This document shows positions 4,807-40,875 of a stretch of 40,875 bases of DNA, piece by piece; the first letter of the stretch is position 1; each line of letters begins with the position of its first letter. The translations under genes and the position numbers were made by a program. This DNA comes from an uncultured Clostridia bacterium (GTDB taxonomy: Bacteria > Bacillota > Clostridia > Oscillospirales > JAAYOS01). Location of the stretch: NCBI GenBank assembly GCA_947630675.1, contig CANRIN010000012.1:1-40875 (forward strand). Direction: 5' to 3'. The notes below the pieces were generated by a model. The model had not been told where the DNA came from. It saw nothing but the letters and a program-made list of their open reading frames with translations, and did no database searches.

Positions 4807-6165
4807 CTATATCACTTTGAAGTTCTTCCACTTCCCGGAGCGCTGACGGTGTATGAACAGCACCGCGCGTATCACCCAGTCGCAGCACATCGCGAGCGCT
4901 ACGCCGATGACCTGCCAGTCAAAGACTATGCAGAAGAGATAGGAGAGCGCGAGCCGCCCCGCTATCGTCGAGAACATAGTGACGTACATCGTGTACCTCA
5001 CGTCGCCCGCGGCGCGCAGTCCGTTGCTGAAGCCGCCGGAGAACGGGAACACGAACGCGTTGAACACGTTGTGTATCAGCACTAGGATAAGCACGAGGCG
5101 CTGCGTCTCCGGTTCGAGCGCCGAGAGTGCACACACTATCGGCGTTATGGCAAAGGAGACGGCGTTCCACGCGGTGGATATGAGTATCGTCCACTTGGTG
5201 AGCTTCTTGAAGTAGAAGTCGGCGGCGTCGGTATCTCCCGCGCCCATGCAGCGGCCGATGACGGTTATGTACGCCGTGCCCATCGAGTTCGAGGCGGAGG
5301 CGGAGAGAGACCAGAGCGTCTGCGCGACGCCGTTCGCAGCTATCTGGCTCGTACCGAAAAGCGCGACGATGCTCGTGAGCGCGACCTTGACGAGTTGGAA
5401 AACGCCGTTCTCGGCGCTGTTGGGTATGGCGATACGAAGTATGTTTTTCAGCATATTCGCGTCCCAAGTGAATATCGAGCGGATGCGGTAATGCACCGCC
5501 CGCTTGCCGCGGAAGCAGAGCACGGTGACCGTGACAGCGGAGAAGCAGTGCGCTATGAGCGACGGATACGCCACTCCCGCGACGCCCGCATGCAGCAGGA
5601 ACACCCCGATGAGGTTTCCGGAGACGTTTATCACGTTTGCAGCAAAGGAGATGTACATCGTCACGTTCGTGCGCCCCATGCTGCGGTAGACCGCCGCGCC
5701 CGCGTTGTATATCGCGATCGCCGGGTAGGAGAAGGCGAGGATGCGGCTGTAGGTCATGCAGGCGTCCATGACATCCGGCTCGACCTGTCCGAACAGAAGC
5801 CCGAATATCGCGCGGCGCCCGAGCAGCACGGCCGCTCCCACCGCCGCCGAGAAGAGCGCGGAGAACATCAGGAGCTGGCTTGCCGAGACGCAGGCGAGGT
5901 CGTTCTCTCCCCTGCCGATGTACTGGCTTATCACGACCGCCCCGCCGCCCGCAAGCGCGGTGAATATGTATATGAATATCGTGTTGAACTGGTTGACGAG
6001 CGCGACGCCGGACACCGCCGCCTCCCCGGCGTAGCTTATTATCAGCGTGTCCGCTATGCCGACGAGCATGACAAGCAGCTGCTCGAGGAGCAGCGGGATT
6101 ATCATATTGCGCAGGTCGCGGTTCGTGAACAGCTCGCCCGTGTTCGCGGCGGTACGGGTACCCAT
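4807..6165 (-). CDS. MATE family multidrug/Na+ antiporter; start trimmed to MGTRTAANTGELF
   Basis: Multi-TM protein with MATE-like N-terminus (MIIPLLLEQLLVMLVGIADTLIISYAGEAAVSGVALV). Confidence 0.9.
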   Translation of the reverse strand: MGTRTAANTGELFTNRDLRNMIIPLLLEQLLVMLVGIADTLIISYAGEAAVSGVALVNQFNTIFIYIFTALAGGGAVVISQYIGRGENDLACVSASQLLMFSALFSAAVGAAVLLGRRAIFGLLFGQVEPDVMDACMTYSRILAFSYPAIAIYNAGAAVYRSMGRTNVTMYISFAANVINVSGNLIGVFLLHAGVAGVAYPSLIAHCFSAVTVTVLCFRGKRAVHYRIRSIFTWDANMLKNILRIAIPNSAENGVFQLVKVALTSIVALFGTSQIAANGVAQTLWSLSASASNSMGTAYITVIGRCMGAGDTDAADFYFKKLTKWTILISTAWNAVSFAITPIVCALSALEPETQRLVLILVLIHNVFNAFVFPFSGGFSNGLRAAGDVRYTMYVTMFSTIAGRLALSYLFCIVFDWQVIGVALAMCCDWVIRAVLFIHRQRSGKWKNFKVI

Positions 6166-13039: not shown

Positions 13040-13187
13040 CGTACAGTGTTGGGACGTCGGCGCGAAGCGCCGAGGTATGATGCGCCCGGTAGAAAGCTTC
13101 GGTGCGCAGCGAGTAGAAGGGCGCATTCGCGCCGCGAAAATGGATCGGAGCTTATTCGCCCCCTTTGGCGGCGAACTCTGCGAGGCT
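13040..13187. repeat. Intergenic repeat copy A (partial modules)
   Basis: 53-bp block 13040-13092 aligns to 16601-16653 (about 42/53 identical by eye); 3' part shares ATTCGCC...GGCGGCGAACTCTGCGAGGCT with the 27.6-kb and 40.7-kb copies. Confidence 0.7.
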
Positions 13188-16600: not shown

Positions 16601-16776
16601 TGTACAATGTCGGGACGGCGGCGCTTCGCGCCGCCGTCTGATGCGCACGGTAGGGGTCGAATGAGATATGGGTCTCGGTTGGTGCCTTGTACACGCCGTA
16701 AAAAATAGATTTATGAATTTTCAAGTATTTTTTAAATCTACAGATTCAAATTTGTTCGCCGCCTGCGGCGGCGAAC
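16601..16776. repeat. Intergenic repeat copy D (partial modules)
   Basis: 16601-16653 homologous to 13040-13092; perfect hairpin GTTCGCCGCC-TGC-GGCGGCGAAC at 16754-16776 shared in core with the 27.65-kb and 40.69-kb copies. Confidence 0.65.
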
Positions 16777-16797
16777 AGCGCGAGGTTTTTGGCAAGC

Positions 16798-17028: not shown

Positions 17029-18006
17029 ATGCCTGATATGCTTGTACCGATACTGTTATTTATCGTGGGTCTCATAGCGCTGATAAAGGGCGGAGACTGG
17101 TTCGTGGACGGAGCAAGCGGCATAGCGCGGCGGTTCCACCTGTCCGAGCTGCTGATAGGCGCGACCGTCGTCAGCATCGGCACGACCCTGCCGGAGGTCA
17201 TGGTCTCGACTACCTCCGCCATCGGCGGCCACGGAGAAATAGCTTACGGCAACGCCATCGGCTCGGTCATATGCAACACCTCGCTCATAGCGGCGATAAC
17301 GATATCCGTCCGGCCGGGCAAGGTCGACTCGAAGTCGCTCCGCCTTCCGGTCTGTTTCTTCTTCATAGCCGCCGCCTTCTACGCAGTCATAAGCTACACG
17401 ACGGGCAGGTTCGAGCGGCCGATGGGCATAGCTCTCCTCGCGGGGTTTGTCGTGTACATGGTCATCTCCGCCGTCAGCATGCGCTCAGGCAGCGCGCCGG
17501 AGGGTTCGGAGCCGGCGGAGGAGATAAAGCAGGGGCCGTTCTGGAAGGACATCCTCATGCTCGTGATAGGCGCGGCGCTGATAGCCGTCGGCGCGCGTCT
17601 GCTTGTCGACAACGGCACGAAAATAGCCGAGTGGCTGGGCGTGCCCGAGTCGGTGATAGGGCTGACGTTCGTCGCGCTCGGCACCTCCCTGCCGGAGCTC
17701 GTCACCGCGATAACGGCGCTTGCGAAGGGCCACAGCGCGCTGTCGCTCGGAAACATCGTCGGCGCGAACCTCTTCAACCTCGTACTCGTGAGCGGCGCTT
17801 CGATAGCGCTCGCGCCGTTCAATATACCGGAAAACTCGGTCATTATGGGTCACAACGCCTCGCTCGTGCTCGACCTTCCGGTGATGTTTGCCGTCATGCT
17901 CATCATGACCGTCCCGGCGCTCGCGAAGGGCAGGCTCTACCGCGTGCAGGGCATAGCGCTGCTCGCGATATACGCGGCGTTCTGCGTGATGCAGTTCGTC
18001 ATGTGA
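17029..18006 (+). CDS. Calcium/sodium antiporter (CaCA family, YrbG-like)
   Basis: Two alpha repeats: GATVVSIGTTLPEVMVSTTSAIGGHGEIAYGNAIGSVICN and GLTFVALGTSLPELVTAITALAKGHSALSLGNIVGANLFN. Confidence 0.95.
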   Translation: MPDMLVPILLFIVGLIALIKGGDWFVDGASGIARRFHLSELLIGATVVSIGTTLPEVMVSTTSAIGGHGEIAYGNAIGSVICNTSLIAAITISVRPGKVDSKSLRLPVCFFFIAAAFYAVISYTTGRFERPMGIALLAGFVVYMVISAVSMRSGSAPEGSEPAEEIKQGPFWKDILMLVIGAALIAVGARLLVDNGTKIAEWLGVPESVIGLTFVALGTSLPELVTAITALAKGHSALSLGNIVGANLFNLVLVSGASIALAPFNIPENSVIMGHNASLVLDLPVMFAVMLIMTVPALAKGRLYRVQGIALLAIYAAFCVMQFVM

Positions 18007-20431: not shown

Positions 20432-22210
20432 ATGAAGAGAGTACTTACCTTTCTCCTCGCCGTGCTCATGACGGCCGGGCTTCTTGCCGGCTGCGGAAAC
20501 GGAGGAGAAAACCCGAGCGTTTCCACGTCGACCGAGCCGTCGGCAGATCCGAGCTACGCGGCGTCGACCGAGCCGTCGGCAGATCCGAGCTACGCGGCGT
20601 CGACCTCGACCGAGCCGGGAGGCACCGAGATCGAACTCCCCCTCACCACGGACGAGGTGTCCTTTGACTACTGGGTTCCCAACAGCGCTTCGTTCGAGGA
20701 CTACACGAGCTTCGACGACAACCTGTTCTATCAGTGGATGGAGGATCAGACCGGCGTTCACCTCAATTTCATCCACCCGAGCGTCGGCAGTGAGAACGAG
20801 GCCTTCTCGGCCATGATACTGTCTCGCGAATATCCGGACTTTATCAGCTTCTTCTCCAGCTATTACAGCGGCGGAGTTGACAAGGCGATAAACGACGGTG
20901 TTTTGCGCCGCCTCAACGAGCTGGTCGACCGGTACATGCCGAACTACAAGGCTACCGTCTACCGTGACGAGGATACCTTCATCCGCGCCATCTCGGACAG
21001 CGGCAACCTGTGGGGCGTGCATCACATCGTCGACTACGCCCAGGGCGCTTGGCTCGGACTCGGCGTACGCAGCGACTGGCTGGACAAGGCCGGTCTGACC
21101 ATAGAGGATGCTTCGACCATCGACGGTATGGAGCGTGTTCTGACCGCGTTTAAGGATTATACCTACGGCAACCAGGGCGCGCTCTTCCTGTCCAACGGCG
21201 GTCTTAACGTCGGCGGCAGTATCTGCGGCTCGTACGGCACCGGTTCGGTGCTCAGCGGCGGCTCTCGCATCCTGAACGTCGACGGCAAGGCGACCTACTC
21301 GCCGATGCAGCCCGGCTTCAAGGACTACGTTGCCAAGATGGCCGACTGGTACGCCAAGGGACTTATCAACACCAACTACATTGCCGACGCGAGCAGCTAT
21401 GCCGCCGAGGATCGTTGGATAAACAGCGACATCGGACTTGCCGAGTTCGTCTACACCATGGCTGCGAACTTCGCGGACATTGCCGCGACAAGCGAGCTGT
21501 ATCCGCAGCCCGACTTCCACATCTCGGCGCTTGCGACTCCGAAGCTGACCGCTGATATGGACGTTTCAAAGGACGTTCACATCCGTCAGACCCAGGAGCT
21601 TGTCCGCACCAACTACTCGATGGGCATCACCACCGGCTGCACCGACGATGAGATTGAGATTGCGTGCCGCTACTGGGACTATGTGTTCAGCCCGGACGGC
21701 ATCACCGCCTCCAACTGGGGCCCGTACGAGGGCGAGATGGGCGACGTGAACGCCACCTACTATGTCGACGAGACCGACGCCAACGGCGACGGACACATCG
21801 AGTGCTATCAGCCGTGGATGATGGAGAAGTACGGCAACGTCACCAACATCCAGTACAAGGTCGCCGCCTACATGGGACCGTCCTACTGCATCTGGAGCCG
21901 CGAGTGGTGCGCGCTGAGTGAGGAAGAGATCAACTACACCAAGATTTGGGACACCGCCGGAAACGACTGGATGTGGCCGGGCGGAGTTACCCTGACCGCC
22001 GACGAGGGCGCAGAGGCTTCTGGCATCCTGAGCGGCTGCAACACCGCCGTCACCGAGTGGACCGCGCTGGTCATAACCGGACAGAAGTCGGCCGACACCT
22101 ACGAGACCGAGCTTGTCCCGCAGCTTGAGTCGCTGAACATCGCCCGCGCGGAAGAGTTGTATCAGAACGCTCTCGACCGCTATATGCAGCGTTCGCAGTA
22201 CCTCCAGTAA
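20432..22210 (+). CDS. Extracellular solute-binding lipoprotein (ABC sugar/oligosaccharide type)
   Basis: Lipobox LLAGCGNGG; low-complexity Ser/Thr/Pro linker; SBP-like body (DYWVPNSASFEDYTSFDDNLFYQWMEDQTGVHLNFIHPS...). Confidence 0.85.
   Translation: MKRVLTFLLAVLMTAGLLAGCGNGGENPSVSTSTEPSADPSYAASTEPSADPSYAASTSTEPGGTEIELPLTTDEVSFDYWVPNSASFEDYTSFDDNLFYQWMEDQTGVHLNFIHPSVGSENEAFSAMILSREYPDFISFFSSYYSGGVDKAINDGVLRRLNELVDRYMPNYKATVYRDEDTFIRAISDSGNLWGVHHIVDYAQGAWLGLGVRSDWLDKAGLTIEDASTIDGMERVLTAFKDYTYGNQGALFLSNGGLNVGGSICGSYGTGSVLSGGSRILNVDGKATYSPMQPGFKDYVAKMADWYAKGLINTNYIADASSYAAEDRWINSDIGLAEFVYTMAANFADIAATSELYPQPDFHISALATPKLTADMDVSKDVHIRQTQELVRTNYSMGITTGCTDDEIEIACRYWDYVFSPDGITASNWGPYEGEMGDVNATYYVDETDANGDGHIECYQPWMMEKYGNVTNIQYKVAAYMGPSYCIWSREWCALSEEEINYTKIWDTAGNDWMWPGGVTLTADEGAEASGILSGCNTAVTEWTALVITGQKSADTYETELVPQLESLNIARAEELYQNALDRYMQRSQYLQ
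20528..20599 (+). repeat. Perfect tandem 36-bp repeat x2 in the lipoprotein linker
   Basis: TCGACCGAGCCGTCGGCAGATCCGAGCTACGCGGCG twice in frame, plus a partial copy. Confidence 0.9.
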
Positions 22211-27078: not shown

Positions 27079-27246
27079 ATGCCTTATAAGATTTCTGATG
27101 AGTGTATCGCGTGTGGTGCCTGCGCCGCCGGTTGCCCGGTCGAGGCTATCTCGGAGGGTGATATCTACGTTATAGACCCCGAGAAGTGCATTGACTGCGG
27201 AGCTTGCGCAGAGAACTGCCCTGTCGGAGCACCGAAGGCCGAGTAA
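27079..27246 (+). CDS. 2[4Fe-4S] ferredoxin, 55 aa (absent from the supplied ORF track)
   Basis: MPYKISDECIACGACAAGCPVEAISEGDIYVIDPEKCIDCGACAENCPVGAPKAE: two CxxCxxCxxxCP clusters; SD AAGGAGG. Confidence 0.96.
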   Translation: MPYKISDECIACGACAAGCPVEAISEGDIYVIDPEKCIDCGACAENCPVGAPKAE

Positions 27247-27298: not shown

Positions 27299-27323
27299 GG
27301 GGGCGGATCTTATATCCGCCCCC
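27299..27323. terminator. Hairpin downstream of the ferredoxin gene
   Basis: GGGGGCGGAT-CTTAT-ATCCGCCCCC then AATTT. Confidence 0.6.
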
Positions 27324-27330
27324 AATTTCA

Positions 27331-27368
27331 ACCTTTCGGAAAAATCCTTGCGGATTTTTCCGAAAGGT
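27331..27368. repeat. 17-bp perfect inverted repeat
   Basis: ACCTTTCGGAAAAATCC-TTGC-GGATTTTTCCGAAAGGT. Confidence 0.85.
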
Positions 27369-27421
27369 TGTCGCGGCAAATCGCGCTCGCTTCGCTCGCT
27401 TACCAATTTGCCGCGAGATTG

Positions 27422-27678
27422 CTCGGTGCGAAATGTGCTCGCTGACGCTGCGCACCCTTTCGCGCCGAGACTTTCACTTGCAATTGCGCAGGCGCAATTG
27501 CAAGTGAAGCTGTCGGATAGGGCGAAGCCCTACCGACAGCGGGCGCTCCGCTTCGCGCCTCGACGGCTTCGCCGTCTTCGACGCACGCTCCGCGAGAGGT
27601 ATTTTCGGCGACGTACACGCCGCCGCCGAAAATGATTGGAACTTATTCGCCGCCTGCGGCGGCGGACTCTGCGAGGCT
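27422..27678. repeat. Modular hairpin element, copy B
   Basis: Collinear with 40501-40716: alpha block 27422-27469, beta hairpin 27509-27540, delta hairpin 27601-27633, epsilon block ending CTCTGCGAGGCT at 27678. Confidence 0.85.
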
Positions 27679-27787
27679 CGGCGGGACGTCGGCGCAAAGC
27701 GCCGTTTGGGATTTCGCGAAACTCTGTAAGACAGTGTACACACCGGGGACGGAAGGTATCCGCCCCCGTTTATTATTACGTTATCCT

Positions 27788-28555
27788 ATGTTTTATAACG
27801 ACGGTTCGATCGAAAAAGAAAACATCACGGCGGAGCTCCTGCCCGGAGGGATACGCCTCCTTCAGGACGGGCGTCACCTGCGCATCGGCGCGGATGCCGT
27901 CCTGCTCGCGGCGTTCTGCCCTCCGGCGGAAAGGATATGCGAGCTCGGGTGCGGCGTCGGGAACGTCCTTCTTGCGCTCGCGGGGAGGCAGCCTTCCGCG
28001 ACGCTTACCGGCGTCGAGATAGAGCCGGGCGCGGCGGAGCTCTGCCGCGAGAGCATACGGCTGAACTCGCTCGAGAGCCGCGTGCGCGTCGAGACGGGCG
28101 ACCTGCGGGAAGCGCCGTCGCTCGGCCTCGCGCCGCGCTCGTTTGACCTCGTTCTGATGAACCCGCCGTATCTGCGCGCAGGGACGGTGCGCGACATGCC
28201 GGATCCCGTCACGGACCTCGAACGCGTGGACAGGACCGCGCCGCCGGACGCGGTCGCGCGTGCGGCGGCATACCTCCTTCGCGCGCGGGGCTCGCTCTGC
28301 CTCGTGCTGAGAGCGGGACGGCTCGGGGACTACATCACGGCGGTCTCGTCGGCGGGTCTCGCGCCCGCCGAGCTCTGCCTTGCGGCACATGACGCGTCCG
28401 CCCCGCCGTCTCTTGCCCTTCTCCGGGCAGAGAAGGGATACACCGGAGAGCTCCGGATACTCCCGACTTTCCGCACGGGCGGGGAGGAGTACCGCCGCAT
28501 CCTCGAGGGAGACGGACTGCACAAGGCTCTTGGCGTCCGACGCCGGAATGACTGA
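27788..28555 (+). CDS. SAM-dependent methyltransferase, TrmN6/YabB-like
   Basis: ICELGCGVGNVLLAL and catalytic-type NPPY (VLMNPPYLRAGT); adjacent to rsmI as yabB is near rsmI in Bacillus. Confidence 0.85.
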   Translation: MFYNDGSIEKENITAELLPGGIRLLQDGRHLRIGADAVLLAAFCPPAERICELGCGVGNVLLALAGRQPSATLTGVEIEPGAAELCRESIRLNSLESRVRVETGDLREAPSLGLAPRSFDLVLMNPPYLRAGTVRDMPDPVTDLERVDRTAPPDAVARAAAYLLRARGSLCLVLRAGRLGDYITAVSSAGLAPAELCLAAHDASAPPSLALLRAEKGYTGELRILPTFRTGGEEYRRILEGDGLHKALGVRRRND

Positions 28556-37408: not shown

Positions 37409-37814
37409 ATTCGGGCGCTCCTTTGTGAAAGACTAACCGATACAAAGTATAGGTATGATTCTTTTAAACTTAGACATAAATCTTCTCCTTTACAAATAAA
37501 TTTCTGGTTGAAATGGTCAGCGAGTACCATCTTTCGTAGACAACGCCTATTACTATAAGTTCGGAACCGGGGGTCGGACAATCAGTCCGATCCCCATCCG
37601 TCTTGTGCCTAAGCTACAATGGGAGAAGTAATCGGCTGTCTCTTTTTGCCTATCAAAGCTTCGCGACGAACGTAGGCGCTTCGTACCAGCGTCGAATAGC
37701 GCGCTATTTTTGCGACTGCACAAAAAATATAGTTGATAGAATAGCCGCAGTGCGAGATTTCTCCAGCCTTCCCATTGCTGTTTACTTAGCCTTTGTGAGC
37801 TGTAGTGAGGCGTC

Positions 37815-40500: not shown

Positions 40501-40716
40501 CTCGGCGCGAAATGTGCTCGCTGCGCTACGCACCCTTTCGCGCCGAGGCCACCGGACAGAGCAAAGCTCTGCCGGTGGCAGCGCTGCGCTCTGCTCCTCG
40601 CGCCTGCGGCGCTTCGAAGCGCGCTCCGCGCAAAGTATTTTTCCCGACGTACACGCCGTCGGGAAAAATGGATTGAATTTATTTCGCCGCCTGCGGCGGT
40701 GAAACTCTGCGAGGCT
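40501..40716. repeat. Modular hairpin element, copy C
   Basis: Alpha block 40501-40547, beta hairpin 40548-40579, delta hairpin 40637-40669, epsilon block ending CTCTGCGAGGCT at 40716; collinear with 27422-27678. Confidence 0.85.
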
Positions 40717-40875
40717 GAGGGCATTGCGGGGCTGTGCAGCCCCACTCCCGTATAGCGGGGTAGCCCCGCAGGGATCTGCGGGGGCGACCCCCGCGTCCTT
40801 GGTAGAGCGGAGCTCTACCGACACCTTGCGGGGCCTGCTGCCCCGCACCCTGCGCTACTTTTTGCTTGTGCAAAA
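40717..40875. repeat. Run of short GC-rich palindromes running into the window edge
   Basis: GGGGCTGTGCAGCCCC, GCGGGGGCGACCCCCGC, GGTAGAGCGGAGCTCTACC, GCGGGGCCTGCTGCCCCGC in succession. Confidence 0.7.

Follow-up and report, generated by a model that had tools for sequence, protein, structure and literature searches.

The window, a 40,875-nucleotide stretch of DNA from an uncultured Clostridia bacterium, carries a chain of hairpins (copy B) between a small ferredoxin-like gene and a gene that probably encodes a methyltransferase (Table 1). In the original prediction this chain was delimited to positions 27422–27678 and compared with a collinear second copy, copy C. These limits were too short, as the feature at this place (site B) spans ~27299–27767 when the terminator copy on each side is included. 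The hairpins themselves were described correctly: letters and coordinates of the beta hairpins (27509–27540 and 40548–40579) are exact, with five paired differences and the bulged A retained, as are those of the delta hairpins (27601–27633 and 40637–40669), with three paired differences and the loop retained. Delta of copy B does contain the A·C pair that had been pointed out; 105 of 136 copies have it, so that it represents the norm in the family and not a defect.

Table 1. Features at site B and further copies of the element in the window
Feature	Position	Strand	Basis or remark
Small ferredoxin-like gene	27079–27246	+	Two CxxCxxC...C motifs, read from sequence; 5' of the element; gene retained in orthologs
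Left terminator hairpin copy, GGGGGCGGATCTTATATCCGCCCCC	27299–27323	+	One copy only in the element-free ortholog (G003)
Hairpin CAACCTTTCGGAAAAATCC...	27329–27370	+	Appears weakly like the left-end (TIR) hairpin of related genera
Alpha2 hairpin, TCGCGGCAAATCGC...TTACCAATTTGCCGCGA	27371–27417	+	Sequence
Alpha1 hairpin with internal loop	27422–27469	+	First module of copy B
Beta' hairpin, TTCACTTG..CAAGTGAA	27473–27508	+	Match to beta'-beta model (R1), 27473–27540
Beta hairpin with bulged A	27509–27540	+	Named in the original prediction
Gamma module, swappable hairpin	27541–27598	+	Comparison of copies
Delta hairpin	27599–27633	+	Named in the original prediction
Epsilon hairpin and invariant tail CTCTGCGAGGC	27646–27677	+	Match to delta-epsilon model (R2), 27599–27677
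Zeta module, GGGACGTCGGCGC..GCGCCG	27681–27704	+	Sequence
Right terminator hairpin copy, GGGGACGGAAGGTATCCGCCCCC, then GTTTATTATT	27745–27767	+	Comparison of sites
Downstream gene, probably a methyltransferase	27788–28555	+	Our reading of the sequence
Truncated copy, reduced to the delta end plus epsilon, following a nested Z module	13130–13187	+	
Degenerate copy with a nested Z module	16602–16785	+	
Copy C (alpha1-beta-gamma-delta-epsilon, without beta')	40501–40716	+	Sequence and delta-epsilon model match

Copies, genomes and modules

A covariance-model search of the genome and its relatives, as had been proposed, revealed a family far larger than two copies. The delta-epsilon model yielded 102, 84, 102 and 109 matches, respectively, in four genomes of one genus (G000, G001, G003 and G004) and none in G002, the fifth genome of that genus. 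G002, although assigned to this genus, lies much further from the other members than they do from one another (53% identity in a test protein). With copy B as the blastn query, 52 matches were reported in the window's own genome, where 40 of 198 candidate places scored. Across the order, the covariance model located the delta-epsilon core in 37 of 396 genomes, mostly in many genera of one family (f13), with few in families f12, f3 and f19; within the window's own family, it was found only in the window's genus. An exact 27-base delta word recurs in 74 stretches of Oscillospiraceae or Clostridia assemblies. The delta stem has a different sequence in each f13 genus, with the outer T/A pairs, the surroundings of the loop and the tail CTCTGCGAGGC unchanged. 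The beta'-beta pair was absent from all eleven other genomes tested, including G002, and thus looks like an addition made in the window's genus. Our literature search returned nothing relevant on such repeats in Oscillospiraceae or Faecalibacterium, nor on double hairpin elements.

Copies in the window's genus are collinear hairpin chains in the order alpha-beta'-beta-gamma-delta-epsilon, to which zeta is often added. The hairpin slots have alternatives: alpha comes in two kinds, gamma in at least two, and delta in about four discrete alleles. The eight double substitutions previously counted between copies B and C are indeed paired changes but, because delta occurs as these few discrete alleles, many of them are differences between whole alleles and not independent events. 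At site B, whose orthologs we located through the downstream gene, the delta and gamma versions of the elements differ among G000, G001 and G004, which points to an exchange of hairpin cassettes between copies.

A second small repeat, the Z module (GTACAATGTCGGGACGTCGGCGC..GCGCCGAGGTCTGATGCGCCC...GGGCGCATT), is nested in the first, inserted either into the alpha loop or into the delta loop at its GTAC; it was seen at 13050–13130 and 16602–16680 of the window, and at G003:C6 ~17770–17830 and G003:C18 ~21200–21400 (contig coordinates). A second hairpin chain (AATTCCCACGCGGTC..GACCGCGTGGGAGCCCTTCCGATTGAAATGCTCG...), whose stems vary by copy yet remain complementary, substitutes the inner gamma at loci L019 and L022, at G001:C6 ~5180–5305 and at G000:C1 ~44084–44206. 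Palindromes of a different kind, GC-rich and dense, occupy 40720–40870 at the contig end behind copy C. At window position 37454 (loci L127/L128 in G003, L129 in G001), G003 has a coding-looking stretch of ~1120 bases, of which ~112 bases are left in G001 and none in the window.

Paired changes in the stems

Chance can be excluded as the source of the paired changes, given that the whole element recurs in tens to ~100 copies and that covariation lies far above shuffled and slid controls. In 24 copies of beta'-beta, 99.2% of cells are paired and 47 cells are double-changed, compared to 12.3 upon shuffling; one beta' pair occurs as all four Watson-Crick types. The delta-epsilon seed set, likewise of 24 copies, contains 54 double-changed cells, compared to 19.8 in shuffled alignments. 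An alignment of 43 non-seed matches from other genera, fitted to the delta-epsilon model, is 99.0% paired and shows 177 double changes (18 of 21 pairs), compared to 51 when shuffled.

Two causes had been offered for this pattern, selection for the hairpins or a copying mechanism that preserves them. In the first case, the chain could be an RNA domain in 3' untranslated regions, acting for example in protection of mRNA 3' ends or in protein binding at conserved loops, with the covariation resulting from selection for its fold as RNA. The strength of the covariation fits such a domain, as does the invariance across genera of unpaired parts, the delta loop and the tail. However, RNA stems tolerate G·U on their own strand, whereas in a DNA palindrome G·T and A·C are equivalent mismatches, and the stems of the family follow the latter pattern. 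One-sided changes in delta-epsilon amount to two G·T and four A·C among 831, as counted on the assigned pairs; the wobble share from a fold of the whole segment (4–5%) was not used for this purpose, because spurious linker pairs appear in it. Stems of beta' (68 copies) are 99.6% Watson-Crick, with one G·T and one A·C among 1088, and beta stems contain 10 G·T and 24 A·C among 1176. With one folding program, the G·U share was 11.6% in tRNAs, 1.85% in terminators and 0.28% in beta'-beta. Wobbles are thus nearly lacking and no more frequent than A·C, which suggests that it is as DNA, not RNA, that the palindromes are maintained. The argument is not decisive, because terminators, which act as RNA, also have a low share.

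An RNA domain is further disfavored by the comparison with Rfam 15, in which the copies match no known family significantly: no match exceeded the gathering score, and at E-value thresholds only weak, non-significant matches were obtained. Moreover, beta'-beta was not seen outside the genus, and both copy number and presence at orthologous sites vary (see below). We consider the covariation best explained by DNA palindromy together with cassette exchange. A structured RNA is accordingly not upheld as its cause, and a copying mechanism that preserves hairpins is the better of the two proposals. The stems would be kept matched by arm-templated copying, in which one arm of a palindrome guides the copying or correction of the other, and complete hairpin alleles would pass between copies. 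For RNA discovery this is a caution, as DNA palindromes can yield strong covariation; weighing G·T against A·C mismatches is an inexpensive test for this.

Element ends, flanking hairpins and an IS1182-family transposase

In clear cases from f13, the core lies within an element of 200–264 bp, both ends of which are inverted copies of CAGNNTGTC[GA]AAAAA; automatically placed edges gave lengths of 152–283 bp over all cases. The motif, which occurs 25 times in genome G185 vs once in a control, is located at the edges of flanking repeats. Such direct repeats were detected (score ≥13) at 19 of 38 f13 copies, and at 20 in a second pass, compared to ~11 at most with mispaired flanks. They consist of two copies of a sequence of 13–37 bp, which in most cases is a terminator hairpin: of the 20 from the second pass, 16 form stems of at least 7 in both copies (a stem of this kind is present in 8.8% of random 40-mers), and 16 have an outer T or A tract. 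About half of the f13 copies have no flanking duplication, and at some loci (L157, L186, L199) the flanking hairpin copies have inverted loops.

Site B shows a comparable arrangement, with a terminator-like hairpin on both sides of the element in G000, G001 and G004. In G003 the element is absent and a single hairpin is present; the outgroup G002 likewise lacks the element and has a single terminator. Over the stretches compared, the genome closest to G003 is G001 (92.4%), so that recombination between the two hairpin copies may have removed the element from G003; the same pattern could also have arisen through independent events. The hairpin at 27329–27370 is missing from site B of G001 and G004. 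In the window's genus few copies retain recognisable ends or flanking duplications, and the window copy has no clear end; the window copies nevertheless probably descend from elements with ends of the CAGNNTGTC[GA]AAAAA type. The earlier reading as a palindromic mobile-repeat family is borne out by the ~100 copies, by the filled and empty orthologous sites and, in relatives, by inverted ends and duplicated hairpin targets: the palindrome-rich mobile repeats form a genuine family that extends across the order, occurs in many Oscillospirales of the gut and is probably mobilised actively.

An intact IS1182-family transposase (NF033551, E 3.6e-115) is encoded in G021, in an element that starts with CAGACTGTCGAAAAAC, closes with its near inverse and has ends matching those of the f13 elements. 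The same 35-base hairpin stands on each side of it, and the loops of the two copies are inverted. Beyond the ends, no sequence shared between this insertion sequence and the family element is visible. Intact transposases were also found in G174 and G195 and, counting partial ones, the gene is present in 9 of 21 genomes searched; none was found in the five genomes of the window's genus. G185 and G269, which carry family copies with intact ends, have only IS1182 fragments, and none of the genomes searched has both an intact IS1182 element and copies with intact ends. A pattern search of G185 and G344 for an autonomous element between paired ends returned none. The IS1182 copies of G174 at L200, L206, L214 and L216 have other ends (CTGTTGACAAAG), and two of them contain an internal stop or gap. 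IS1272, a member of the IS1182 family, targets stem-loops without sequence preference, and one branch of the model drawn by its authors duplicates the whole stem-loop, while replacement is what was reported for IS1272 itself (PMC5678879).

The flanking hairpins could also be ordinary tandem terminators, at site B as in f13, or products of copying at stalled replication forks, with no transposase involved. The inverted loops at some flanks are what cruciform exchange or template switching would give, and the decay of ends in the window's genus is compatible with this account. It does not sit well with repeats of up to 37 identical bases that stop at a shared inverted-end motif, with a true IS1182 element in the same surroundings, or with an element-free ortholog that carries one hairpin, and we judge it decidedly unlikely. 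Movement by a RAYT (Y1 tyrosine) transposase, as in REP/BIME/REPIN families, would accommodate the many copies, the palindromes and the intergenic mosaic. However, a Y1_Tnp search of the window's genome gave no match, while control genomes did match, and the unit is ~200–300 bp with, in relatives, inverted ends and hairpin duplications. To our knowledge, the RAYT route does not make such ends and duplications, and this origin is highly improbable.

We therefore suggest, with a probability of roughly two in three, that the family is a non-autonomous, palindrome-rich MITE that spread in Oscillospirales by IS1182-type transposition into terminator stem-loops, with its stems maintained as DNA. The part assigned to an IS1182-type transposase draws on shared ends and a shared target habit. 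In this mechanism, the transposase would be supplied in trans and would join the element at both feet of a terminator stem-loop, and repair would leave one hairpin copy on each side of the element. As the outer hairpin copy retains the T-tract, the gene would keep its terminator. In the window's genus, the ends would then have been lost and the alpha, beta' and beta hairpins gained, giving rise to copies that now lie mostly in sense orientation directly behind stop codons.

Position behind genes and relation to known systems

We assessed orientation on fetched sequence totalling ~535 kb, using an in-house gene caller that missed small genes such as the ferredoxin. In tandem intergenic regions of the window's genus, 23 copies are in sense orientation vs 3 in the opposite one; 13 further copies are convergent and 4 divergent. 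Alpha1, the kind of alpha on which the distance to the stop codon was measured, begins 0–14 nt past the stop in 22 of 31 copies, while 8.5% of random positions fall within 20 nt. The targeting of terminators alone does not predict the sense bias of 23 to 3. Both the bias and the closeness to stop codons favor an RNA domain, but orientation in f13 is far less biased (19 vs 10, with 8 convergent and 1 divergent) and, together with the near absence of wobbles, makes it unlikely that such a domain accounts for the family. Because copies in the window's genus are sense-oriented right behind stop codons, a secondary RNA role there is possible. More tentatively, an element that duplicates the terminator, and whose host gene is thereby always left with one, may in this one genus have turned into an oriented 3'-end module, present at about a hundred stop codons, exchanging its cassettes and affecting mRNA 3' ends genome-wide; we regard this as doubtful.

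The family shares with REP/BIME/REPIN sequences abundant intergenic palindromes and mosaic arrays, but its genome lacks a RAYT gene, its unit is larger and its ends are different. BOX, ERIC and similar repeats are, like the present element, modular, intergenic and hairpin-forming; we know of no terminator duplication by repeats of this type. In common with Rfam RNA families, there is a consensus fold with covariation, from which the near absence of wobble and of significant Rfam 15 matches sets the family apart. It resembles MITEs in being short, non-coding and present in many copies and, in f13, in having inverted ends and target duplications. Unlike in MITEs, what is duplicated at the target is an entire hairpin, which varies in length, and the interior is a hairpin chain whose shape is conserved across genera; moreover, the ends are mostly lost in the window's genus.

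The IS1182 family, and IS1272 in particular, offers a likeness in the stem-loop target, the inverted ends and the direct repeats, for which ISfinder gives 2–60 bp (PMC7335449). In contrast to these insertion sequences, the family element has no transposase and its interior is unrelated; furthermore, the stem-loop is duplicated around the family element, whereas IS1272 reportedly takes the place of its stem-loop and leaves no duplicate. The family thus provides a natural series of insertions with whole terminator hairpins duplicated, the outcome drawn by the IS1272 authors in their structure-dependent transposition model and not reported for IS1272. It also suggests a harmless route to ~100 copies in a 2-Mb genome, by insertion at gene ends with the terminator restored.
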